Source: an uncultured Clostridia bacterium
GTDB lineage: Bacteria; Bacillota; Clostridia; Monoglobales; Monoglobaceae
Length of the DNA: 15,689 nucleotides
Direction: 5' to 3'
Assembly: GCA_945878965.1 (NCBI GenBank)
Contig: CAMCUJ010000006.1
Coordinates: 1 to 15,689 of the forward strand
The notes under the pieces are model-generated. The model ran no database searches. It saw nothing but the letters and a program-made list of their open reading frames with translations, and was not told where the DNA came from. Both the position numbers and the translations under genes were made by a program. Below are positions 1 to 11,730 of the stretch, piece after piece; the first letter of the stretch is position 1, and every line of letters begins with the position of its first letter.

Positions 1-896
1 CCGTTAAATATTCTTGGTTTCATAATATCCATATCAAGTCCGGCATTAACTATCATCCTCGATTCATTGCCATAATACATTCCTTTAGTGTATTTGGGAA
101 ATAATTCATTTCTGTCAGGCGATAATATTCCTCCGATAAAAGGTAAACGTATAACTCCGCCGTGGATATGTCCGGATAAAACCAAGTCATATCCGAAATC
201 ATCAATATAATCAAAAAGATTTGCTCTATGTACAAGCATAATATTAAATCCGTCTTCTACAACTTCATTTCTTTTTCTTTCAAGAAGACTCTTAAAATAA
301 TCATCCATCTTATCAAGTTCCTTATCATCAAGGCAGGAATAATCCAGTATTGAATGAATATACAAGGACTGCTGTCTTTCTTCTTTGGTCATATCCGAGG
401 TCTTCTTCTTGTTATAAGCGTCAGCAGGAACTATAGTTCCATCACTGTTTATTGTAATCGGTGAATTATTATTATATATCATTGTGACGCCTCTGTCTTC
501 AAGCTCAGAAATAAATCCTCTTCCGTCTGTATTCATAGACTCATGATTACCTGTCACAAAATATATAGGTGCAATTTCCTTAAGTCCATCTATCAATGCA
601 AACGTATTTTTCTTATCGGAATTTCCGATTGTTATCATATCTCCGCCAAGTAATATAATATTAGGCGCCTGTGCCTGAACTTTTTTTATTACCTGATCAT
701 AATAATAGGAATTATGAAAATCCGTTATAAATGCTATAGTATAATTATTGAAGTCCTTTGAATACTTTTTACTGTAAATTTCATATTCATTTACGCTAAC
801 AGTGTTGTCGTCAATTACTATATAACCTACTAAAAATACAAGTATAAAAAGGATAGCTAAACTCTTTTTCAAAAAACCTCGCATATCAATAACCAT
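1..896 (-). CDS. Membrane-anchored calcineurin-like metallophosphoesterase (3' end cut by window edge)
   Basis: The minus strand reads open from an ATG at 896 to the window edge (298 codons, no stop reached). Residues about 12-28 form one hydrophobic helix with basic residues before it, so the enzyme is probably anchored with its catalytic domain outside the cytoplasm. The metallophosphoesterase motifs appear in order: D-x-H (D59, H61), GGD (D86), GNHE (N117, H118), a VHR histidine (H223) and GHIHGG (H243, H245). These build the two-metal site of the calcineurin-like family, and the sequence after GHIHGG resembles YkuE/YaeI-type members. Between GNHE and H223 lies a hydrophilic insertion of roughly 70 residues. 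A second in-frame ATG at 884 is possible. AGAAAGG sits 2 bases before the 896 ATG and 14 before the 884 ATG, so neither spacing is ideal. It is the last visible gene of the polysaccharide cluster. Its substrate is unknown; a role in lipid-linked or cell-surface phosphate chemistry is an inference. Confidence 0.88.
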   Translation of the reverse strand, partial: MVIDMRGFLKKSLAILFILVFLVGYIVIDDNTVSVNEYEIYSKKYSKDFNNYTIAFITDFHNSYYYDQVIKKVQAQAPNIILLGGDMITIGNSDKKNTFALIDGLKEIAPIYFVTGNHESMNTDGRGFISELEDRGVTMIYNNNSPITINSDGTIVPADAYNKKKTSDMTKEERQQSLYIHSILDYSCLDDKELDKMDDYFKSLLERKRNEVVEDGFNIMLVHRANLFDYIDDFGYDLVLSGHIHGGVIRLPFIGGILSPDRNELFPKYTKGMYYGNESRMIVNAGLDMDIMKPRIFN

Positions 897-897
897 A

Positions 898-958
898 GCC
901 TTTCTGCCCACAAATTACAGTTTCAAATTTTCATAGCCTTATCGTGGGCAGATAAGGC
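898..958 (-). promoter_or_regulatory. Candidate RNA switch: competing hairpins that cover the phosphoesterase RBS
   Basis: Read on the minus strand, three segments compete. Segment A (958 to 944, GCCTTATCTGCCCAC) can pair through its first 8 bases with segment B (943 to 936, GATAAGGC), giving an 8-bp hairpin with a 7-base loop. A can instead pair along its full length with segment C (911 to 898, GTGGGCAGAAAGGC), giving a 14-bp stem with one bulged base. Segment C contains AGAAAGG, the only good ribosome binding site for the phosphoesterase gene. A-C pairing would bury it and A-B pairing would free it. The loop of the A-B hairpin also complements the first part of C, so a tight pseudoknot is a third option. 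No U-run follows, so it is not an intrinsic terminator. I do not recognise a known riboswitch class. The pairings are seen directly; the regulatory role is inferred. Confidence 0.5.
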
Positions 959-987: not shown

Positions 988-3204
988 TTAACTGTTTTTC
1001 TGCTTTTCACTCTCTCTGTTCTTCTTAAGCGACTCTATAAACAAATCCTTACCCATAGGTCTTGAATAATAGTATCCCTGCTGGAAATCGACATTAAGAG
1101 CATTTACAATGCTTGCAGCCTTTGCATTTTCTATTCCTTCGGCACTTACCTTAAAGCCTAAGTTATGACTTACATCAACAACATCTCTTATAAATTCTCT
1201 GTCACCAAGACCCTTATCAATATTCGATGTATATCGCTTTCCTATCTTAACAATATCAACAGGAAGCTTATGAAGTGAATCAAGCTTTTTATTGGCTGAA
1301 CCAAAATTATCAATCGCTACCTTAATTCCAAACGTCTTAATTGCAATAAGCTTCTTTGATATGAAGTCTACATCTTCAATTTCACCGTTTCCGGATATCT
1401 CAAGAACAATATTTGAAGGATTAACCTTACTTTCATCAAGAGTATGAAGAACATCATCCATAAATATCTTTCCGCCTATCTGATTTAATGTGAAATTAAT
1501 ACAAATGAATATGCTTTCGGAAATACTGCGGTTACAAGTTCTGCAAGTTGCACACGCTTCCTTTGTAATCCATTTTCCTATTATCTCCATTATATCATAC
1601 TTCTCAGCAATTTCAATCAGCTTACTTGCATCAACCATTCCATACTCGGCACTGTCCCATCTTAAGAACGCCTCTGCACCTATCCATAGTCCCTCGGAAT
1701 CAACAATAGGCTGATAGTGAAGAGAAAATTCACTGAAATCATTTGCTATCGCATTAAAGAGTGCTCTGTGAAGCGGCGGCAGCTTATCAAGATTAACAGG
1801 AAGCACACCCTGCTCAAGAAGTGCTATTTTGTTCTTCTTGTCCTCAAGTAATGAATCTTCCTTTATTTTCTTGATAATCTCTATCGCAAGAATTAATACT
1901 ACAGCAAGACATATGCCAAACATTACCGCAAATACAGTAACTGTTCCTCTTGAAAGTGTAGGAGCAGTTCCGACTGATGATAAATACGATAAATATTGTG
2001 TACCCTTATAATAATTATAATCTGTTATTGTTACATTTGCAAGCTCTGTATACTCACTTATCGCCTTGCCGAGCTTTTCAATAAGTAAATCTGCCTGTCT
2101 TGAATATATAACCTTATCTTCAAGCGACACAGAATCATTCATATATGAATCTATTAAAAGCTTGTAATAATCACTCTCGTTTTCAGCATTTTTTGCTGCG
2201 ACCTCACTATCAACATATCCCATTATGATTTCATCATAAGTAGTAAGCATTTTTGAATAATTATCCTGCTGGATTATATCCATATTGATGCTTGCTTTGT
2301 TATCAAGTGAACTGTCCAATGAACTCTTAGTTTCTCCATTGTTATATTTAGCATAAAAATTACGCATAAGATCAAATGAAAGCTTTGCTTCTTCCGATTT
2401 CTTATTAAACAAGAGCTGATTTTCTTCAATCTTATAATTATAATTTTTTATCAAAACCTCGCTGTTTTTAGACAGACAACCAACTCTCACAACAGAGTAA
2501 AGCTTCATATAATCTATATCATGGAGATTTTGAAAATACTTTTGTAAGTCATTAAATGTAAGTCCGGTTTTAGCCGAACGGAAATTTTTATCTGTTTCAC
2601 TCCACGTAGCAACCGCACTTATGCCCGAATTAATCTGCTTTTCAAGCATATCGCATATTTCCATATAATCATAGTCGGAATAATTTTTATCCTCGAATAT
2701 ATTTGCAATTTTGCTGTGATTAGTATAATTTTCACGTATAAAGCTATCATATTCCTCAAGAATTTTATTAAGTACCTTAACTCCGTATTTTTCGCCGAGT
2801 TTTCCGCTGTATTTATAGCTTACTGTATACTCGGTCGGATAATACTCAAAATCCTCACCTTTTTCAGCAAGTGCCTGCATCTTCTGCTTTGTTGTGGCAT
2901 CAATAAGAGGTGAAATAGTTATAGCACTTCTTATCTGTTCAACACTTACATTTAATTTTAAAGATGATATTACCTTCTCTATTACCGCCGGAGATATCAT
3001 TTCATTTACATCTAATTTTCCGCCCTTTATATTAAGACCCTTTTCTGCATTTTCAAATGTATACTTAAGCGTCATACTCGCAACATAGGTCTGATTTTGA
3101 GCAACATAAACCTGACCTAAAAGTGCCGCTATAATTACAAATACTATAATCAGCCTTGTATGCCGTTTCAAATATTCAATTATTTCAACTACAGATATAT
3201 TCAA
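988..3204 (-). CDS. Wzz-like polysaccharide co-polymerase fused to a degenerate EAL (c-di-GMP) domain
   Basis: The 738-residue protein starts at TTG (3202-3204), with GGGGTG six bases upstream and no better ATG nearby. Transmembrane helix 1 spans about 17-36. A large, mostly helical extracytoplasmic region follows to about 418, then transmembrane helix 2 at about 421-444. This is the layout of Wzz/chain-length-determinant proteins and would place the C-terminus in the cytoplasm. Residues about 480-727 form an EAL domain. The signature reads AEAFLRW (E511), with N570, E602, K653, E689, E692 and QQG (708-710) in register. However, the DDFG motif is DNFG (632-635), the KID motif is KIG (653-655), and the LEITES segment is LEISGNG. 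Loss of these metal/loop-6 positions suggests a c-di-GMP-binding receptor rather than an active phosphodiesterase. The extracytoplasmic part is related to that of the upstream neighbour, 18 bases away. The likely role is adjusting polymer length or export in response to c-di-GMP. The domain calls are firm; the output is inferred. Confidence 0.85.
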   Translation of the reverse strand: MNISVVEIIEYLKRHTRLIIVFVIIAALLGQVYVAQNQTYVASMTLKYTFENAEKGLNIKGGKLDVNEMISPAVIEKVISSLKLNVSVEQIRSAITISPLIDATTKQKMQALAEKGEDFEYYPTEYTVSYKYSGKLGEKYGVKVLNKILEEYDSFIRENYTNHSKIANIFEDKNYSDYDYMEICDMLEKQINSGISAVATWSETDKNFRSAKTGLTFNDLQKYFQNLHDIDYMKLYSVVRVGCLSKNSEVLIKNYNYKIEENQLLFNKKSEEAKLSFDLMRNFYAKYNNGETKSSLDSSLDNKASINMDIIQQDNYSKMLTTYDEIIMGYVDSEVAAKNAENESDYYKLLIDSYMNDSVSLEDKVIYSRQADLLIEKLGKAISEYTELANVTITDYNYYKGTQYLSYLSSVGTAPTLSRGTVTVFAVMFGICLAVVLILAIEIIKKIKEDSLLEDKKNKIALLEQGVLPVNLDKLPPLHRALFNAIANDFSEFSLHYQPIVDSEGLWIGAEAFLRWDSAEYGMVDASKLIEIAEKYDIMEIIGKWITKEACATCRTCNRSISESIFICINFTLNQIGGKIFMDDVLHTLDESKVNPSNIVLEISGNGEIEDVDFISKKLIAIKTFGIKVAIDNFGSANKKLDSLHKLPVDIVKIGKRYTSNIDKGLGDREFIRDVVDVSHNLGFKVSAEGIENAKAASIVNALNVDFQQGYYYSRPMGKDLFIESLKKNRESEKQKNS

Positions 3205-3222: not shown

Positions 3223-5595
3223 TCAACGATTTTCAGAATTTTCCTGATCTATGCCCCCAAATAAATCATCTGTCTTATTTCCTTTTAAGAGTTCATCTAT
3301 AACAGAGTCTTCACTGCTTAAAATCTCATCAATTTTATGACGCATTCCGCCCAAAACACCATTATCCGTAAACTCGATAAACTTAGGCTCTTTAGCTGCA
3401 TCCATTTCTGTATATGAAATATCGTATATTCCTGCATCTCTAACTATTTTATCGGATACATTTAAATCAACAGCTTTATCTTCGACCGTATCATCAGCTT
3501 TAGCGTCCTCTTCTTCATTGTCAATATAGTCTATCGGATAATAATCATCATATAAGCTGTTATAGATATCATCATAAATATCATCCTCTTCATAGCCGTC
3601 GTACATTTCGTCATCGTCTTCATAGCTGTGACTTTCCTCAAGATTTTCAATATCCGATCTATCAGAATAATCAACTGTTTCCGGTTTAATTTCATTTTCG
3701 GCAATAAGTTCTTCGGTATCAGATTTCAAATCAGCACTATCATAAGGCAAAGCTTTGCTGTAAAGAAGCTCCGTTATCTCCTCCGGCTGAACATCGGATA
3801 AAACAGAAAACTCATTCTGTATTGAGCCGCTGTCGATATTTGAGGATTTCTCATTATTTACATCTAAAATGCTGTAATCGTTGTCCGAACCGGCTTCATT
3901 ATTATGAACGTTTTCTTCCTTACCCGAAGTATCAAAAATAAGCTCAACTTGTTTTTTATTCTTTTTCTTTTTTGCCCTTTTTTCCTCTTCTTTTTCAAGC
4001 ATTTTCTTCAGCTTAAGTTTACGTTTATTTTCTCGTTCCTCAAAAAATCTTTCAATATATCCCTTGGAATTCGGAACCGACTCCGACTGAGTGCCCGACT
4101 TCAAATCTTCTGCATTGGCATTTTTATAAGCACTTTTCCTTACTCTCTTTTCTCGTTGAATTATAAGCTTATTCTCAAGCTTAATAAGCATATCAACTAT
4201 AATCTTACGTTTTGAAATCTTTATTCCAAGTATCTCTGTAATCTCCTGAACACCCGGCTTTTTATCCTTATCAAATAAATACAAATAAAGTATCGCACCG
4301 AATATTGCAAGCAGAAGAATTATAGCCATCTTTAAAAGAAGATTCATACTGAAATATGACTTTCCCGCATAAGTAAATCTTACATAATCACTGCATCTTG
4401 AATCAAGATAATCAGCTATTGTTTCATCTGCAAGTGCAACCAAACGTTCGCTTTCCTGCTCAATTTCAAGAACAAGCCTGTCCGCAACATTGGACAGCCT
4501 TGTTTGCGACTCAGGACTCATAACAGTATTGGCATACTCATTTATAAGTCTGTTATTCTCTTCAATATCTTTAAGCACTGCCTGTGCAGAAACACCTACA
4601 TCAAGCGCTCGTTTTGTTATGGTGTCATACGCCGTTTTTGGTCTTGCCTGATATAATCCGACTTCCTCATTCTGACCTGTTATTACTATGTTTTCAACAT
4701 AGCTGTGATCATACTCATTCATAGCGGTTCTTGCAGCCTCTGCCTCATCTGCAAGCTTATTATAATAAAGATTATAGCTTTCGTTCTGAACTCTAAGCTT
4801 ATTTATAAACTCCTCAGGATTCTTTGCAAGCTTACTTGAAGATACAAACGACCTAAGATTCTTAACCTTAATTTCATTAAGATTTTTAAACTCGGCAATA
4901 AGATCATTAAAACTTTTTCCGGTATTCTTTGAGCTGTATGAGCCGTTTTCTCTTAGCTTGCTTTCAAGATATGTAATATACATATTAATTCTTGTTTCAA
5001 ATACATCCGCAATTTCAACATAGTCATATCCATCATAGCTTATATTCTGAGTAATCTTTGGAATTATGTTCATCTCTGCGTGAGAGTCCATAAAATACCT
5101 CGTGTAACTCTTATAAAGTGACTCAATAAGAAATTTATTATCTATATCGGGAATAATTCCGAACAAATTCTTAAAGCTTCTCTTATACACGCCCTGTATC
5201 GGGGAAACGGTAACTCTGTACTCATTTGCAAAATACGAATAATCCTGACCAAGATTTCTCGCATTCTGAACCTTAGTCTGAATCCCATACGGTGTTATTT
5301 CATCTATAACTATAGCATTTTCAATATCCGATAATTTTATAGGGATTTTACCGGTTTTCTCATTGTAAATGTTAACAGTTCCCAAAAGAACTTCTTCGGA
5401 CATCAAATCATAAATATTAAAGCGTGTTCCGTCCGGATATCTTCCATTTTCCGAATCCGGATATATGAACGATATAGTACCTATTTCAGAATAATATATA
5501 TAAAAACAATTTACTCCATAATAAATAAGTGTAACTAAAACAGCTACTATAGCTATAAATTTTCTTTTTCTCCATATATATTTTAAAAGATCCAT
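3223..5595 (-). CDS. Wzz-like membrane protein with long charged, Tyr-rich acidic cytoplasmic tail
   Basis: The 790-residue protein starts at ATG 5595, with AGAAAGG nine bases upstream. It has a short basic N-terminus, transmembrane helix 1 at about 12-34, a helical extracytoplasmic region to about 412 and transmembrane helix 2 at about 415-441. The rest, about 350 residues, should be cytoplasmic. That tail has a Lys/Arg/Glu-rich stretch (about 476-548) likely to be a charged helix, then a low-complexity Asp/Glu/Tyr/Ser region (about 555-705, densest at 657-697) and a more ordered end (about 710-790). The ectodomain aligns by eye with the downstream EAL protein: YDYVEIADVFETRIN (191-205) matches YDYMEICDMLEKQIN (177-191), and TGKSFNDL (225-232) matches TGLTFNDL (213-220). 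The two are therefore paralogues. The role is probably chain-length control or co-polymerase function beside the Wzy-like polymerase encoded just upstream. No BY-kinase domain is attached. The tail is far longer than in ordinary Wzz/CpsC proteins, and its function is unknown. Confidence 0.75.
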   Translation of the reverse strand: MDLLKYIWRKRKFIAIVAVLVTLIYYGVNCFYIYYSEIGTISFIYPDSENGRYPDGTRFNIYDLMSEEVLLGTVNIYNEKTGKIPIKLSDIENAIVIDEITPYGIQTKVQNARNLGQDYSYFANEYRVTVSPIQGVYKRSFKNLFGIIPDIDNKFLIESLYKSYTRYFMDSHAEMNIIPKITQNISYDGYDYVEIADVFETRINMYITYLESKLRENGSYSSKNTGKSFNDLIAEFKNLNEIKVKNLRSFVSSSKLAKNPEEFINKLRVQNESYNLYYNKLADEAEAARTAMNEYDHSYVENIVITGQNEEVGLYQARPKTAYDTITKRALDVGVSAQAVLKDIEENNRLINEYANTVMSPESQTRLSNVADRLVLEIEQESERLVALADETIADYLDSRCSDYVRFTYAGKSYFSMNLLLKMAIILLLAIFGAILYLYLFDKDKKPGVQEITEILGIKISKRKIIVDMLIKLENKLIIQREKRVRKSAYKNANAEDLKSGTQSESVPNSKGYIERFFEERENKRKLKLKKMLEKEEEKRAKKKKNKKQVELIFDTSGKEENVHNNEAGSDNDYSILDVNNEKSSNIDSGSIQNEFSVLSDVQPEEITELLYSKALPYDSADLKSDTEELIAENEIKPETVDYSDRSDIENLEESHSYEDDDEMYDGYEEDDIYDDIYNSLYDDYYPIDYIDNEEEDAKADDTVEDKAVDLNVSDKIVRDAGIYDISYTEMDAAKEPKFIEFTDNGVLGGMRHKIDEILSSEDSVIDELLKGNKTDDLFGGIDQENSENR

Positions 5596-5611: not shown

Positions 5612-5639
5612 TTATTTTACTTTACAAGAAGTAAAATAA
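5612..5639 (-). repeat. AT-rich hairpin overlapping the polymerase stop codon, just upstream of the next RBS
   Basis: TTATTTTACTT (5612-5622) and AAGTAAAATAA (5629-5639) are perfect 11-base inverted repeats with a 6-base loop. On the minus-strand transcript the stem covers the last codons and TAA of the polymerase gene. It ends directly before the AGAAAGG of the Wzz-like gene. No U-run follows, so it is unlikely to terminate transcription. It could affect mRNA processing or translational coupling. Confidence 0.45.
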
Positions 5640-7025
5640 CATAAATCTCCAATCCGCAAAATAATCAAAACCAAATCCATAAAACGTCCATATAAACGAA
5701 CATATAAAGAGCAATAAATAATAATCATCCTTGTATTTAAAATAGCTTACAAGATTCACACCGGTTTTAATTGCAAAACTAAGCAGAAACAAAAACGTTC
5801 CTACCGCTCCGAAGCAAAGCAGAAAACCAATATATGCCTGATGAGCAACATTTCCGAAATTCTCTGTAAAATAAGGATCAATCGCCGCAGTCATATGGAT
5901 ATTTCCCCCAAATAGCTTTTTAACCGTGTCTTGATTTTTATAATAATCCATATACTGAATCCAATGCGTTTCTCTTCCGCTGGTCACAGTATCCATAGAG
6001 GACGAATCGGAAGAAGAAAACTGGCTTTCAACTCTTGTAAGCATACTCTGAACTATCCCCATATTCCTCAGTTGCGGAACATTAAGCACTAAAAATACCG
6101 CAAGTATCATAGCTGCACCGGATATAAATAAAACCTTTACAGACTTCATTCTGTACCTTAAAATTATGTATGCAACCATTCCGCAAACATTAAACAATAT
6201 TCCCGAAATACTTCCCGACGCAACAAGAAAATAATACAGCATTATAAGTACAACCGTTCTTATAATCTTATTTTTAAATTCAGGAACCTTAATTGTAAAA
6301 AATATAGCAAGATTCATAAAAAAGCCTGTATAATTTGGGTCATTGAAGCTGCCCATATATCTGTCAACACCAAAAAGCTCTCCTGAATTTGTATAACCTA
6401 ATACATAGTTATAAATATTATTTGCTCTGAAACCATAAATCCCCGAAGCTAATGCACATATAACTATATAAAAACAAAATCTCTGAAACAGTTTTTTGTC
6501 TACTTGAAACTTACTTGTTAAAAATATAAGGAATGCAAAATCGACTATGTATTTAAATATCCATTTTGCATTAAGAACAAAGCTTGACGGAGGCTCAATA
6601 CCCTTTGCGATATATTCACGTATAGTAATTGAGTTATCAGCATTCGGAAGTGCAAATATGGCATACATTGCAAGAACCAAAATAGCCGGTATTAAAAACA
6701 CATTAAGCTTACGTTTAGACTTATCAAATAAAATAGCCTTTACAATAAGCATAATAGTGAACATTCTTGCAATAGGAACGCCTATAACAACGACAAGCTG
6801 TTCTCCGAAAAACAAGAAAACTGCCGTAAGCAAATAAAATTCATCATAAAAAAACAGCCATATCATAAGCGGTGCTATAAGTAATGCCGCATACATATTT
6901 ATACTCGGAAATATCGACATCGCAAATATAACAGCAAAAATTACATACCATATATATTCACAAACCTTATTTCCTTTTGTGTTAAGCTGTTTTCCAAAGC
7001 TTGTATCAACAATAGTATCTGACAA
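5622..7025 (-). CDS. Wzy/O-antigen-ligase-like polysaccharide polymerase
   Basis: This 467-residue polytopic membrane protein has about 10-12 hydrophobic segments, for example near 24-42, 44-60, 62-82, 104-126, 155-171, 181-196, 232-246, 256-290, 297-314, 396-420 and 436-452. Family-typical polar motifs sit in the loops: SFNDPNYTGFF (226-236), SGRETHWIQY (349-358) and HQAYIG (395-400). These match the conserved Asn/Asp-Pro-Asn, Arg and His positions of Wzy_C/O-antigen ligase family enzymes, which join undecaprenyl-linked repeat units on the outer face of the membrane. The start is TTG (7023-7025) with AGGTGG about four bases upstream. The only nearby upstream ATG runs straight into TAG, so TTG is the best choice. 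The gene lies between glycosyltransferases and the two Wzz-like genes, the normal neighbourhood for a polymerase. Polymerase rather than ligase is favoured by the Wzz-like neighbours, but the family alone cannot separate the two. Confidence 0.8.
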   Translation of the reverse strand: MSDTIVDTSFGKQLNTKGNKVCEYIWYVIFAVIFAMSIFPSINMYAALLIAPLMIWLFFYDEFYLLTAVFLFFGEQLVVVIGVPIARMFTIMLIVKAILFDKSKRKLNVFLIPAILVLAMYAIFALPNADNSITIREYIAKGIEPPSSFVLNAKWIFKYIVDFAFLIFLTSKFQVDKKLFQRFCFYIVICALASGIYGFRANNIYNYVLGYTNSGELFGVDRYMGSFNDPNYTGFFMNLAIFFTIKVPEFKNKIIRTVVLIMLYYFLVASGSISGILFNVCGMVAYIILRYRMKSVKVLFISGAAMILAVFLVLNVPQLRNMGIVQSMLTRVESQFSSSDSSSMDTVTSGRETHWIQYMDYYKNQDTVKKLFGGNIHMTAAIDPYFTENFGNVAHQAYIGFLLCFGAVGTFLFLLSFAIKTGVNLVSYFKYKDDYYLLLFICSFIWTFYGFGFDYFADWRFMLFYFL

Positions 7026-7079: not shown

Positions 7080-8276
7080 TTAATTTATTCCCCATAACTT
7101 CTCAAGGTTTTTTTCAGGCAATAACTCATCAAAATTCCGCATTTCAAGATTTCTTCTAAGCTCCCCCAAAACCCCTTTGTTTTTTAACAAATATATAATT
7201 TTATTATATATCAATTCATCACAGTTGTCAACAACAATTCCATCCACATTATGCTTTATTTGCTCTCTTGCACCTGCGTATTCCGTAGCTAAAACAGGTA
7301 TTCCGAGAATCTGAGCCTCAGTAACCGCTATAGGCTTTCCCTCATATTTTGAGGTTAAAACAAACAAATCACATTTCTTTATATAAGGATAGACATTACT
7401 TCGTGAGCCCATAAGAATAAACTCATTCTCAACACCGTTTTCCTTAATAAGCCGCTCAATTTCCGCTCTGTCCTCGCCCTCACCGAATACATACCATCTA
7501 ACATTATTAAATCCGTTATCCTTAAGCTTTTTCATGGCAAGCACCCCTCTGTATATCGCCTTATGGGAATTATTAAGTCTTGCCGCCGTAACGATATTAA
7601 AACAGCTCTTATCCGGATTAAAATCCGTCACTTCCTCCTTTGCAAGCTCACGCACCCTATCAATCTCCACAAAATTCTCTATGGCAATCGAACGCTCACT
7701 ATATTCCGGAAACAAAGCATCAAATGAGCGCTTACATTCATTTGAAACAAGTACAATTCTGTCAAATTCGCCGAGCATTTTACGGTCAATTTTCGGATTC
7801 AATCCGGCTAAAATGAAATCAACGTGAATATAAGCTATCTTTTTTTCGGAATTAACCCGCTTTGCAATATAATTATCGGGAAACCCCTCCATATATCCGA
7901 CAGCAATATCGTATTTCTTTTCAAGCTTCCTTGAAACCGATGTAAGCGCCTGCCCCGACATAATCTGAAACCAACCGTTTTTATAACGCTTTTTCTTATA
8001 AATATCATACATAAATGCTCTGAAAAGATAACCTCTGAAAAAATAAACTATCAGCTTTTTAAGCTTTGCCAGATAATAATTTTTTTCCGTTACCGCCTGA
8101 TTAAGTATATTCACCTGACTTGGAATTCTATCAAGGTATTCACCCTCGGTTCTTGACATTATAAGGTCAACGTCATATTTATCATAATCAATATTTCTGA
8201 GCAGTGCCAAAAGACTGCTTGTAACACCGCCCGTTTCAAGAGCAGAGGTGGCAATAAGAATTTGTTTCTTTTTCAT
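7080..8276 (-). CDS. GT4-family (GT-B fold) glycosyltransferase
   Basis: The 398-residue cytoplasmic enzyme starts at ATG 8276, preceded by GAGG at 4 bases. The N-terminal Rossmann half begins with a beta strand and the glycine loop SALETGGVTSSLLALL (11-26), typical of GT4 acceptor-side domains. A basic, aromatic stretch (about 70-103) probably touches the membrane or its lipid-linked acceptor. The C-terminal half (about 225-398) has VFGEGEDR (263-270), then KKCDLFVLTSKYEGKPIAVTEA (300-321) holding the E-x7-E pair E312/E320 that binds the nucleotide-sugar ribose and phosphates. The GIPVLATEYAG segment (325-335) follows. It should add one sugar to the growing lipid-linked repeat unit, with retention of configuration as is usual for GT4; donor and acceptor cannot be read from sequence. 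It is separated from the preceding glycosyltransferase gene by 167 bases of hairpin-rich DNA, and from the polymerase by 54 bases. Confidence 0.88.
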   Translation of the reverse strand: MKKKQILIATSALETGGVTSSLLALLRNIDYDKYDVDLIMSRTEGEYLDRIPSQVNILNQAVTEKNYYLAKLKKLIVYFFRGYLFRAFMYDIYKKKRYKNGWFQIMSGQALTSVSRKLEKKYDIAVGYMEGFPDNYIAKRVNSEKKIAYIHVDFILAGLNPKIDRKMLGEFDRIVLVSNECKRSFDALFPEYSERSIAIENFVEIDRVRELAKEEVTDFNPDKSCFNIVTAARLNNSHKAIYRGVLAMKKLKDNGFNNVRWYVFGEGEDRAEIERLIKENGVENEFILMGSRSNVYPYIKKCDLFVLTSKYEGKPIAVTEAQILGIPVLATEYAGAREQIKHNVDGIVVDNCDELIYNKIIYLLKNKGVLGELRRNLEMRNFDELLPEKNLEKLWGIN

Positions 8277-8439: not shown

Positions 8440-8461
8440 TTGACTAATGCTTGACTAATGC
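8440..8461. repeat. Perfect 11-base tandem duplication at the 3' end of a GT4 gene
   Basis: TTGACTAATGC is present twice with no gap (8440-8450 and 8451-8461). In minus-strand sense the duplication covers the last codons and the TAG stop of the upstream GT4 gene. Because 11 is not a multiple of 3, it changes the reading frame at the end. With a single copy the protein would end ...LALVNT with a TAA at 8433-8435, instead of ...LALVKH. It may be replication slippage or a target-site-like duplication linked to the adjacent GC-rich element. Confidence 0.75.
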
Positions 8462-9712
8462 AAGTATTTTTTCAGCCTGAGCCACATTATTTTTATTCTC
8501 AACAACAAAATTTCTGCCTCTTGTTCCCATTTCCTTAAGGCTTTCCTCGTCACACTCGCAAAGCCTTATAATATCCTTTGCCATATTATTTATATTTTCG
8601 CTGTCAAAATAATTAAGATAACCGTCATATTCCTCGGGAAACGCCGGAAGCCTGAAGCAGAGTACCGGACGCCCCGACATCATATATTCAATAATCTTTG
8701 AAGGAAAAGAATACTTTGTATAATCCCCGTCAGCCGTTCTCGGATTTACAAGAATTGTTGCTTTGGACTGAATTTTAACCGCCTCATCTCTTGTTACGGC
8801 TCCGGTATATATTATTCTTTTATCTCTCTTTGCCGCCTCCGTCACTTCTTTTTCCGCTTCTCCCGCTCCGCATAAAATCAAACGGTAATTCGGATTTTCT
8901 ATAAGCTCAAACGCTTTAAGAAGCTTAAGTATCCCGTATTTCTTTGTAAAGCTTCCTGTGTACGCTATACTTTTTATACCCTTTTCAAAAACACCCTCAA
9001 AAAGCTTCGGATTTTTAAACTCAGTTTTTAAAAGCTCGTTATATTCCTTAGGATTACTTATTCCCTCCATAACAATATACGGTCTTTCGCCTTCAAAATA
9101 ATCCTTCATAGCCTCTGCAAGATAAACAAAACAGTCAACCTCAGACTGATATTTTTTTATCCGCCTTACTCTTAATTTACGTATTATATCAAAAAGAATT
9201 TTCCCCTCTTTGTCTATATCGGTATATTCGGGAAGGTCGGGAACTATAAGGCACACCCTGTTGTTTTCCGAATACTTTCTGAAAATTTTCGCCGCCTTTA
9301 AATACATAGGAAGCACACTGTAAATTATAAGCACACGTCCTTTTTTTGTTCCCTGCTTAAGCTCTTTTTTGATATGCCTAAGCACCGCTCTTTCACAAAA
9401 CCATTTCTTTAAAAGAGTGAGATTACAGTAGCCTATGTTTATATCATCCGCACCTTTTGTATGCGAAAACTCAAATTCCTTTATAAATAAATCCCTGTAC
9501 CGCTTCGGAAATGAACCGACAGGCAGAACATTAAATATCTTAACAGGTTTTCTCAAATTCTCATCAAGACCCTTTATTATGCTTCCAAGATGAGCATTAG
9601 CCGCAAAAGGAAGCGTCGCACTGCTTTTTTCAAGAACCTCTTTTTCCATACCTTTTGGAAAAATTCCTCCAAGTACTATAACCTCTGTTTCTCTTTCCCC
9701 ATTCACTCCCAT
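8444..9712 (-). CDS. GT4-like (GT-B fold) glycosyltransferase
   Basis: The 422-residue protein has ATG at 9712, 14 bases after the upstream GT2 gene ends. The nearest purine-rich site is GGGG about 11 bases upstream, so initiation may rely on translational coupling. The N-terminal half (about 9-230) is divergent but begins with VIVLGGIFPKG and contains a strand-helix-strand pattern around 125-160. The C-terminal nucleotide-sugar half is clear: SIAYTGSFTKKYGILKLLKA (248-267), YRLILCGAGE (276-285), IYTGAVTRDEAVKIQSKATI (301-320), and LVNPRTADGDYTKYSFPSKI (321-340) leading to EYMMSGRPV (342-350). This is the usual GT4 donor site, with one acidic partner at E342. No membrane helix is apparent, so it should act at the inner face of the membrane. 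The C-terminus has been altered by an 11-base tandem duplication. Sugar specificity is not readable. Confidence 0.83.
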   Translation of the reverse strand: MGVNGERETEVIVLGGIFPKGMEKEVLEKSSATLPFAANAHLGSIIKGLDENLRKPVKIFNVLPVGSFPKRYRDLFIKEFEFSHTKGADDINIGYCNLTLLKKWFCERAVLRHIKKELKQGTKKGRVLIIYSVLPMYLKAAKIFRKYSENNRVCLIVPDLPEYTDIDKEGKILFDIIRKLRVRRIKKYQSEVDCFVYLAEAMKDYFEGERPYIVMEGISNPKEYNELLKTEFKNPKLFEGVFEKGIKSIAYTGSFTKKYGILKLLKAFELIENPNYRLILCGAGEAEKEVTEAAKRDKRIIYTGAVTRDEAVKIQSKATILVNPRTADGDYTKYSFPSKIIEYMMSGRPVLCFRLPAFPEEYDGYLNYFDSENINNMAKDIIRLCECDEESLKEMGTRGRNFVVENKNNVAQAEKILALVKH

Positions 9713-9726
9713 ATTTTAAAATACCC

Positions 9727-10635
9727 CTATCTTTTAATTTTACTGAGCATATCAAACATTTCGACAATAAAATCGACAGGTGATATAAAGAACGCCTTTA
9801 TAAGCGACACGAACGCTTTGGGATAATTATGATTTCTCTTGAAATAGAAAACCAAAACTGCGTTTCGCCTGAATTTTATATATCGTATTTCACGCTTCGT
9901 CAGCCTGTCAAAATACTGCTCCTTAATACGCATCATCTCCTCGTCGCCTTTCATTTTATCAACGCTCTGAGATATACGTGCCTTATTATGTATATACTGA
10001 ATTGCGGTTATTTTGTTATAATAGCCTATCTTAAGTCCCTTTTCTATACTTTCAAGCATAAGAATGTATTCTTCACCTATAACCGCTCCGGGTTTAAATC
10101 CGCTCGTCTTGTTATATCCGCTGCGGCTGAACATATATACATCAGTAGGAGTCAGATGATGCATCAAATGTGCTTTAAGCAAGCTTTCTTTATCCGTATT
10201 CTTTACATATCTTGAATTTATTCTTGCATCAACCTGTCTGTCATTATCGTCATACATTTTTATGTCACTGAATGAAAGTTCAAGGTCATTTTCCGTCATA
10301 AATTTAAGCTGACCCTCTATTTTATCCGGAAGATACACATCGTCATCGTCCAAAAAGCAAATATAATCACCGCTTGAATACTCAATTCCGTTATTTCTCG
10401 AAACAGCCGCACCCGAATTTTTTTTATTTTTTATATATTTTATACGTTCATCATCGCCAAACACATTCTTTAAGCTTTGCTCGGTTTTTATCTGGTCGTC
10501 CGTTCCCTCTCCGTTATCATCAACTATAACTATTTCTATGTTTTTATAGCTTTGCTTTAAAACCGACTCAATCGCCCTTTGCAAAAATTCACTTCTTCTA
10601 TAAGTAGGAATAATTACACTAACCTTTAAATCCAT
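9727..10635 (-). CDS. GT2-family (GT-A fold) glycosyltransferase
   Basis: This 302-residue enzyme is first in the minus-strand operon; ATG 10635 lies about 52 bases below the predicted transcription start. It opens with the GT2 hallmark VSVIIPTYRR (5-14) and AIESVLKQSYKNIEIVIVDD (21-40), where D39/D40 contact the nucleotide. The metal-binding D-x-D region is FLDDDD (94-99), within YICFLDDDDVYLPDKIEGQL (91-110). GEEY (187-190) lies where the catalytic-base acidic motif is expected in inverting GT2 enzymes. The last 50 residues hold amphipathic or hydrophobic segments (about 259-266, 273-285 and 287-298) that may dock on the membrane. It would add one sugar to a lipid-linked polysaccharide repeat unit. 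The family is certain; the sugar is not known. Confidence 0.9.
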   Translation of the reverse strand: MDLKVSVIIPTYRRSEFLQRAIESVLKQSYKNIEIVIVDDNGEGTDDQIKTEQSLKNVFGDDERIKYIKNKKNSGAAVSRNNGIEYSSGDYICFLDDDDVYLPDKIEGQLKFMTENDLELSFSDIKMYDDNDRQVDARINSRYVKNTDKESLLKAHLMHHLTPTDVYMFSRSGYNKTSGFKPGAVIGEEYILMLESIEKGLKIGYYNKITAIQYIHNKARISQSVDKMKGDEEMMRIKEQYFDRLTKREIRYIKFRRNAVLVFYFKRNHNYPKAFVSLIKAFFISPVDFIVEMFDMLSKIKR

Positions 10636-10693
10636 ACTTCTATCCCACCCTTACAATATACAAAAACTTTTCATCTCCTGTTAGCTTAGTATT

Positions 10694-10722
10694 ATGATAC
10701 CATAAAATACGCTCTCCGTCAA
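10694..10722 (-). promoter_or_regulatory. Sigma-A-type promoter for the polysaccharide cluster
   Basis: On the minus strand a -35 box TTGACG (10722-10717) and a -10 box TATCAT (10699-10694) are separated by exactly 17 bases. Transcription would start near 10687, leaving about 52 bases of leader before the GT2 ATG. The GT2 start has only a weak purine-rich site (AAGGGTGGG). All genes from here to the left edge run the same way with mostly short gaps, so this promoter could serve the whole cluster. Confidence 0.65.
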
Positions 10723-10834
10723 TGTTATAACCTATATTTTAAGAAAATCAATTTCTGATTGGTATTCAATCTGTAGATGCTAACTGTGTTCGCCGTCATT
10801 TGATTATATCCGATCCCTGCCGCATAAAAATTTA

Positions 10835-10863
10835 TTGCATTAAAAAAATATATGTGTTATTAT
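10835..10863 (+). promoter_or_regulatory. Extended -10 promoter of the aldo-keto reductase gene
   Basis: TTGCAT (10835-10840) and TATTAT (10858-10863) are 17 bases apart, with TG one base before the -10 hexamer (10855-10856). The start site would be near 10870. This lies downstream of an in-frame ATG at 10852 and supports the later ATG at 10903 as the true start. It is divergent from the polysaccharide promoter about 115 bases away, so the two could share regulation. Confidence 0.6.
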
Positions 10864-10902
10864 AAATTAAAAGTATTAAAAACAAGGAGTGAAAATTTTA
10901 AT

Positions 10903-11730
10903 ATGAACAATCAACTTAAAAGCCATAAGGACACATATATATTATCAAACGGAGTAAAAATTCCATGTATAGGCTTTGGAACATATCTTATGACGGGAAA
11001 CTTAGCCGAAGATTCTATAATTGAAGCATTGAACTTAGACTATCGCCATATTGACACCGCCTCACTTTACAAAAATGAATCCGATGTCGGACAGGCAATA
11101 AAAAACAGCGGTATACCACGAGATGAAATATTCGTAACCGGAAAGCTTTGGAATACCGATCAAGGCTATAATTCCACACTTAAGGCATTTGATGAATGTC
11201 TTAATCGTTTGGGCTTTGATTATCTTGATATGTATCTTATCCATTGGCCTGTTCCCGAGGGTCACGAGGACGATTTTGAGGAATTGAATCTTGAAACGTG
11301 GAGAGCATTTGAAAAGCTTTATAAAGAAAAGAAATTACGTGCCATAGGTGTAAGCAACTTTAAACCAAAGCACTTAAAGCCGCTTATGAAAAACGCTGAA
11401 ATTATGCCTATGGTAAATCAGCTTGAAATTCACCCCTGCCACAATCAAACCGAAACAGTGGAATTTTGCAAAGAAAACAATATACAGGTTGAAGCTTGGG
11501 GTCCTCTTATGCGGGGTAAAGCTCTCGGATTTACCGAGCTTAAAAAAATAGCTGATGCACATTCCAAAAGCATTGCTCAAATTTGCTTAAGATGGCTTAT
11601 TCAGCAGGATATAATTCCTCTTCCGAAATCACAGACGCCAAGCCGAATTAAAGAAAATACACAGATATTCGATTTCACATTAACAGATGAGGAAATGAAG
11701 ATTATAAATAACATCAAATTATCGGAATAA
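10903..11730 (+). CDS. Aldo-keto reductase (AKR family, 2,5-diketogluconate-reductase-like)
   Basis: This cytoplasmic NAD(P)H-dependent reductase of 275 residues is a normal length for bacterial AKR5-type enzymes. The chosen ATG (10903) follows AAGGAG at 10884-10889. An in-frame ATG at 10852 would add 17 residues but lies upstream of the predicted transcription start and has no clear binding site. The catalytic tetrad is complete: D51 (RHIDTA), Y56 (SLYKNE), K81 (VTGKLW) and H114 (YLIHWP). The phosphate/cofactor-binding end is also present: PLPKSQTPSRIKENTQIFDF near the C-terminus (Lys-Ser and Arg positions) and GVSNFK in the barrel. It reduces carbonyls such as keto-sugars or aldehydes to alcohols. 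The exact substrate cannot be stated. The gene is monocistronic: divergent from the polysaccharide operon and closed by a terminator, so there is no strong contextual link to polysaccharide synthesis. Confidence 0.92.
   Translation: MNNQLKSHKDTYILSNGVKIPCIGFGTYLMTGNLAEDSIIEALNLDYRHIDTASLYKNESDVGQAIKNSGIPRDEIFVTGKLWNTDQGYNSTLKAFDECLNRLGFDYLDMYLIHWPVPEGHEDDFEELNLETWRAFEKLYKEKKLRAIGVSNFKPKHLKPLMKNAEIMPMVNQLEIHPCHNQTETVEFCKENNIQVEAWGPLMRGKALGFTELKKIADAHSKSIAQICLRWLIQQDIIPLPKSQTPSRIKENTQIFDFTLTDEEMKIINNIKLSE

Follow-up and report, generated by a model that had tools for sequence, protein, structure and literature searches.

Introduction

To our knowledge, c-di-GMP controls polymer machines through PilZ or I-site receptors, mostly in synthase-dependent systems. 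BcsA and Alg44 carry a PilZ receptor for c-di-GMP inside the machine that makes their synthase-dependent polymers, and Pss is synthase-dependent as well. In excerpts of the published accounts, the PilZ domain of BcsA is mentioned in PMC4125290, PelD (PMC7112168) and PssE (PMC4125290) are described as binding c-di-GMP via a GGDEF I-site, and Pel is classed as synthase-dependent (PMC7112168). LapD, as excerpted in PMC3032553, is a catalytically dead EAL receptor that binds c-di-GMP and couples the EAL domain across the membrane by a helix, the Glu of EAL being Lys in this protein, and FimX, as excerpted in PMC3527489, keeps four of ten essential residues, yet binds c-di-GMP. Co-polymerases of the Wzy pathway are described, in excerpts of a review (PMC12220298), as governed by tyrosine phosphorylation; in the PCP-2 systems, whether the octamer is open or closed, and how long the chains become, is determined by the phosphorylation state of a C-terminal kinase (PMC12220298).

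The window (the whole stretch of 15,689 nucleotides analysed here) is a single contig, C6, of the draft genome G000 (1.52 Mb, 79% complete). The initial annotation, made from its letters, knew of no described Gram-positive system in which an EAL domain is fused to a Wzz-like co-polymerase, and none was found among the papers listed from the open-licence literature; neither a Wzz/PCP-EAL nor a PCP-GGDEF fusion was described there, as judged from titles and the beginnings of abstracts. Papers pairing GGDEF, Wzz and chain length determinant, and likewise PMC8669469, had these as separate genes with no fusion in the parts of the texts available.

Locus organization and domain architecture

The apparent operon on the minus strand runs from a family 2 glycosyltransferase through two family 4 glycosyltransferases, a Wzy-like protein, PCP-A and the fusion protein PCP-B-EAL to a calcineurin-like phosphoesterase (Table 1), and the window contains no unfused EAL partner gene. 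PCP-B-EAL is a co-polymerase encoded beside Wzy-like and glycosyltransferase genes; the adjacency to a Wzy-like gene had been pointed out from the start and stands, though this protein reaches 26.5 bits against Pfam Wzy_C, under the cut-off of 31.7. PCP-A scores 165 and 143 bits against two co-polymerase profiles. Its cytoplasmic tail has about 350 residues, mostly charged, and most other PCP-As total 450-525 aa. The phosphoesterase matches the YaeI and LpxG profiles, both below threshold.

Table 1 Features of the window, with positions counted from its first letter
Feature	Position	Strand	Details
Calcineurin-like phosphoesterase	3..911	-	next after PCP-B, truncated by contig end
PCP-B-EAL, co-polymerase with degenerate EAL domain	988..3204	-	738 aa, TTG start
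Degenerate EAL domain of PCP-B-EAL	1057..1764	-	residues 481-716
N633 codon (AAT), replacing second metal-binding Asp	1306..1308	-	
Transmembrane helix 2 of PCP-B-EAL	1876..1944	-	residues about 421-443, hydropathy
Extracytoplasmic Wzz/PCP-like domain of PCP-B-EAL	1951..3093	-	residues 38-418, model and fold comparison
Transmembrane helix 1 of PCP-B-EAL	3097..3153	-	residues about 18-36, hydropathy; model helix 16-37
PCP-A, partner co-polymerase without EAL, long charged cytoplasmic tail	3223..5595	-	790 aa
Wzy-like polymerase or O-antigen-ligase-type protein	5622..7025	-	467 aa
Glycosyltransferase family 4	7080..8276	-	
Glycosyltransferase family 4	8444..9712	-	
Glycosyltransferase family 2	9727..10635	-	apparent first gene of the operon

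Hydropathy and the structural model both support the annotated arrangement of two membrane helices around a Wzz-like ectodomain, and hydropathy and charge predict that the termini, including the EAL domain, are cytoplasmic. In the model, the second membrane helix is one helix of residues 419-464 that extends into the cytoplasmic linker. Of the profiles proposed for the two parts of the protein, Pfam EAL matched residues 481-716 with an E-value of 1.5e-52, and Pfam Wzz matched residues 2-77 (E 3.4e-4) at 21.3 bits, under its cut-off of 25.5. PF02706 is precomputed on two relatives (P0021 and P0023). All 38 matches from a PDB sequence search fell on the EAL domain and none on the ectodomain. Since the 50 matches listed by Foldseek for the full-length model all contained EAL domains, the ectodomain was folded separately. 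The modelled ectodomain has the PCP fold, as the initial annotation had led us to expect, and resembles Wzc, KpsE, FepE and WzzE most; its top VIA Z of 14.3 is a value that mostly helical models typically reach. This fold and the neighbouring genes suggest a role of PCP-B-EAL in setting chain length.

A family of fusions with differing modules

One search yielded 33 full-length relatives of PCP-B-EAL, with 27-98% identity, before EAL-only similarity begins, and together with the PCP-like fold they confirm the annotated fusion of a Wzz-like co-polymerase to a degenerate EAL domain. A chimera or mis-assembly as the source of the fusion was ruled out by the many relatives on separate contigs. The C-terminal module of PCP-B varies within the family, being an EAL domain of type I (as in the window), a divergent EAL domain of type II, a degenerate GGDEF domain of either of two motif types, or absent (bare type). 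EAL was present in 116 of the best 120 of 135 relatives in the type II search, and GGDEF in 119 of the best 120 of 1170 proteins in the GGDEF-type search. Six-frame searches with the co-polymerase part had matches, at E <= 1e-25, in 16 of 51 genomes from the order and in 5 of 398 sampled from the phylum, and, at E <= 1e-20, in 50 of 391 sampled from the class. The five from the phylum comprise G000 and G209 within the class of the window and three weaker matches outside it. Around G153, 5 of 16 genomes matched, and no further EAL-type genome was among them, all five being already known. Where the source gives names, these are 'EAL domain-containing protein' or, for the GGDEF type (Clostridia bacterium), 'diguanylate cyclase', of which the latter is probably misleading. 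The PCP-GGDEF proteins of L045 (10678-13320) and L046 (7981-10515) have an extra tail with about 250 low-complexity residues.

The ectodomains of 59 PCP-Bs, without L044, L048 and L049 (cut by contig ends), were placed in a maximum-likelihood tree with six PCP-As as the root. The 13 EAL-bearing PCP-Bs form a clade of their own (100/99), as do the 24 with GGDEF (100/99), and the 22 labelled bare lie at the base of the tree and next to the GGDEF clade. One of the latter, L131 (G172), lies on a contig that stops before the module, so that its type is unreadable, and sits among the bare rows; L048, labelled bare in the count of gene neighbourhoods given below, holds the front portion of the EAL-type gene that is cut in G032. 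The two separate clades indicate that c-di-GMP-type domains were most simply acquired twice in the same place, and losses of the module in bare lineages may be an alternative history. A single clade of EAL- and GGDEF-bearing proteins, a group named after the tree was seen, was rejected (p-AU 0.0003).

The residues GGDEF themselves are gone from the GGDEF branch, and the motif YNGNGSF was found in 114 of the best 120 of 1170 relatives; L041, with GSGSF, belongs to the first motif group and was placed in the second by the motif rule. In the alignment of GGDEF-type PCP-Bs, the Arg of the RxxD I-site is absent from all 25 proteins and the Asp from 22 of them. Given the absence of the I-site Arg and the GGDEF residues, this parallel is no proof of c-di-GMP sensing in that branch, whose domain may, to judge by its motifs, sense GTP or nothing. 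GGDEF matches occur in 56 of 60 genomes, including all 13 EAL-type genomes; of the other four, G172 has a cut PCP-B, and the PCP-B of G033, G035 and G154 is bare. The sole GGDEF match of G024 seems to be its own PCP-B.

Gene neighbourhood and BY-kinases

Among 14 EAL-type loci, the gene next upstream of PCP-B is PCP-A in 11, which are all that the script could read: one of the other three is cut, and two (L106 and L107) were scored as displaced, an antisense frame having been picked, though their fusion itself was read. The same position holds in 19 of 20 GGDEF-type loci and in 13 of 21 labelled bare (L048 and L131 included). The phosphoesterase is present in 12/14, 18/20 and 5/21 of these groups, respectively. 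A relative of the Wzy-like protein of the window was recognised in most EAL-type clusters and not in the GGDEF-type ones, which contain several genes with no assignment.

BY-kinases (TIGR01007) above cut-off were found in 46 of 60 genomes, and none in G000 (79% complete). In none of the 60 genomes did the PCP-B contig carry one within 20 kb of that gene, either fused or alongside as in PCP-2b systems, with the reservation that many of these contigs stop short of this distance, so that a kinase gene farther off could be missed. The nearest lie about 23 kb (G107) and 25 kb (G074) from PCP-Bs that have neither EAL nor GGDEF.

Several clusters include further unusual proteins. In the GGDEF-type I clusters (L039-L044, L109, L111 and L116-L118), an EAL protein of about 455 aa is encoded six genes from PCP-B, and that of L039 has canonical EAL residues and a very weak GGDEF match. 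The PCP-A of L125 (10636-13041, 801 aa) starts like a family 2 glycosyltransferase and is perhaps a fusion. L100, L101, L103, L104 and L049 each encode a partly GT4-like protein, about 653 aa long, whose start in L100, L101 and L104 looks similar to YdjC-type deacetylases.

Riboswitches for c-di-GMP at fusion loci

At the Rfam gathering thresholds, and with L047, L050, L118, L120 and L138 left out of the scan, a c-di-GMP-I riboswitch was called in 7 of 14 EAL-type loci, in 2 of 17 of the bare type and in 0 of 18 of the GGDEF type; among the EAL-type loci, L005 and the pieces of G032 are truncated close to the operon. Six of the EAL-type cases (L038, L100, L101, L102, L104 and L108) have the aptamer on the strand of the fusion gene, 3.7-4.4 kb upstream of it, and the genes that follow the aptamer directly run through PCP-A into PCP-B-EAL; in L102, the cluster has two glycosyltransferase genes ahead of the aptamer. 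The seventh aptamer, in L099, precedes a separate gene behind the cluster. Under stricter filters, the 13 EAL-type genomes contained 11 c-di-GMP-I riboswitches, of which 7 were at most 10 kb from the fusion, against 0.09 expected from random placement, for which the nominal P of 1e-12 is overstated owing to rounded genome lengths, a distance window chosen afterwards and related genomes. The riboswitch counts, like the residue counts given below, stem from related sequences and not from independent events.

Among the GGDEF-type loci, a c-di-GMP-II riboswitch lies on the PCP-B strand of L114, 5.0 kb upstream of that gene, and in the GGDEF-type genomes G109 and G160 the distance between PCP-B and a c-di-GMP-I riboswitch is 12-13 kb. 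The leader of the window (10600-11000) had no Rfam match at E <= 10, and the 79% complete G000 yielded no c-di-GMP-I riboswitch; no c-di-GMP-II riboswitch was found in it either, in a search in which the control genomes likewise gave no match. The c-di-GMP-I riboswitches at L121 1343-1422, L125 18724-18806 and L099 5634-5719 lie beside clusters and are followed by genes for large proteins with starts like signal peptides.

Residues kept and lost in the fused EAL domains

The residue comparison covered 34 type I fused, 123 type II fused and 92 unfused EAL domains, the unfused set being leftovers of the relatives search together with own-genome and cluster EALs and thus biased towards canonical ones. 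Redundancy was kept, so that several near-copies are included (P0001 and the window protein share 98% identity, and P0030 and L051, both from contigs of 49,561, are probably the same protein); the partial P0032 was left out of A1. RocR residue numbers are background values, taken in part from the papers cited. According to excerpts of the respective papers, D302 and D303 of BlrP1 bind metal, N239 positions metal 1 and K323 is the proposed water activator (PMC3989770), and loop 6 of EAL domains mediates dimerisation and is needed for activity (PMC12943098).

The residues that had been singled out as kept in the window protein (E511, N570, E602, D632, K653, E692 and the QG pair, Q709 and G710) proved, with R515, invariant in all three sets. 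Those that belong to the c-di-GMP pocket and metal site 1 (E511, R515, N570, E602, D632, K653 and Q709) are accordingly kept in 157 of 157 fused domains, despite a mean pairwise identity of 0.52 and 0.56 within the two fused groups. This retention, like the riboswitch linkage to fusion loci, argues against the view that the EAL domain is a mere protein-contact module that binds no nucleotide, comparable to CsrD or BluF. We regard that alternative as unlikely, while acknowledging that the degenerate EAL domains of BluF (PMC3509220) and CsrD (PMC3032553) act without catalysis, as excerpts of these papers state, and that the parallel GGDEF branch without I-site suggests that contacts at the level of the fold may suffice.

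Losses among the columns that are at least 95% conserved in the unfused set concern mostly loop 6, the second metal site and the base, and a few structural columns have also changed in type II, such as the L of EAL (kept in 4/123) and one Phe (1/123). The Glu that stabilises loop 6 is present in 0/34 type I, 0/123 type II and 92/92 unfused domains, the second metal Asp in 6/34, 1/123 and 92/92, and the base Glu of EGxE in 29/34, 0/123 and 92/92. The type II base Glu is Cys in 122/123, an unusually uniform swap. For the window, the annotated degeneracy was borne out by N633, G605 and an altered loop 6, at which the domain lacks the residues of active phosphodiesterases. Fused EALs hence show the pattern of degenerate-EAL receptors, in which pocket residues are kept and catalytic ones lost, and it appears quite unlikely that the domain has remained an active phosphodiesterase, held at the polymer machine so as to lower c-di-GMP locally: in the window both the second metal Asp and the loop-6 Glu are replaced, the latter is gone from all 157 fused domains, and type II has lost its base throughout while the binding residues remain invariant. 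Nevertheless, the window keeps the base E689 as well as K653 and all metal-1 ligands, and the G076 protein (L089/L102) carries DDFG and KID; with E689 kept here and the second Asp kept in six type I domains, weak hydrolysis may occur. The own genome G000 encodes two canonical EALs and, on C64, one canonical GGDEF protein.

It is very improbable that the GGDEF and EAL tails serve the PCP rings as allosteric GTP modules or for dimerisation, with c-di-GMP acting only on transcription via the riboswitch, since this leaves unexplained why the EAL branch keeps exactly the c-di-GMP pocket, even if the GGDEF branch without I-site, the c-di-GMP-I riboswitches also found beside two bare-type clusters and the degenerate GGDEF of C. 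crescentus that senses GTP (excerpts of PMC12943098) would agree with it.

Proposed control of the co-polymerase by c-di-GMP

The link to c-di-GMP goes beyond what the initial annotation had in view, with the ligand residues kept in every fused EAL (157/157), riboswitches before sister gene runs and the separate acquisition of a GGDEF domain. Judging from these sequence features, the protein is probably the PCP-B of a clostridial Wzy-dependent operon, whose EAL domain, no longer efficiently hydrolysing, has been kept as a receptor of c-di-GMP (and metal), with ligand control replacing the cycle of tyrosine phosphorylation. On this reading of a receptor-type EAL domain, c-di-GMP would bind the cytoplasmic EAL of PCP-B with little or no cleavage. 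Occupancy by the ligand would alter either EAL-EAL contacts under the membrane, as in LapD, or contacts between EAL and PCP-A, and the altered contacts could shift the assembly state of PCP-A and PCP-B and, in turn, polymer length or release. The ligand switch would stand in for the tyrosine phosphorylation cycle of PCP-2 proteins. More tentatively, a whole class of clostridial Wzy-pathway co-polymerases might operate in this manner, with c-di-GMP on a ring of damaged EAL domains setting the open or closed state of PCP-A/PCP-B, the riboswitch on many of the runs setting the dose, and a sister lineage having separately done likewise with a dead GGDEF.

If true, fusion of a receptor to the co-polymerase would amount to a third route of control, beside PilZ or I-site receptors and tyrosine phosphorylation; it would explain how clostridial clusters run without a local kinase, and c-di-GMP could give the cell direct control of its slime coat. 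It also gives a test of the part that the cytoplasmic side of PCPs plays in chain length, in which a small ligand is added or removed, as opposed to the tracking of phosphorylation. One scaffold gained EAL and GGDEF domains separately, and both decayed.

Comparison with known systems

The PCP-2a and PCP-2b systems (Wzc; CapA-CapB and CpsC-CpsD) are alike in having two membrane helices and an ectodomain of similar fold, in being encoded beside Wzy and glycosyltransferases, and in placing a cytoplasmic regulatory module after helix 2 or in a separate partner; however, that module is a BY-kinase there, whereas a degenerate EAL (or GGDEF) domain and tandem PCPs are found here. As in LapD and FimX, in the parts of their descriptions available, an EAL domain without the full catalytic set would serve as the receptor, but the output here is a co-polymerase, the Glu of EAL is kept, and neither GGDEF nor HAMP stands in front. 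PelD of the Gram-positive Pel operon and PssE of Listeria likewise use a degenerate domain of c-di-GMP turnover as receptor in an exopolysaccharide operon; the present locus differs from them in its Wzy-type cluster, its EAL pocket and the direct fusion to the co-polymerase. BcsA and Alg44 share with it a built-in receptor, which in their case is PilZ and belongs to synthase-dependent systems.
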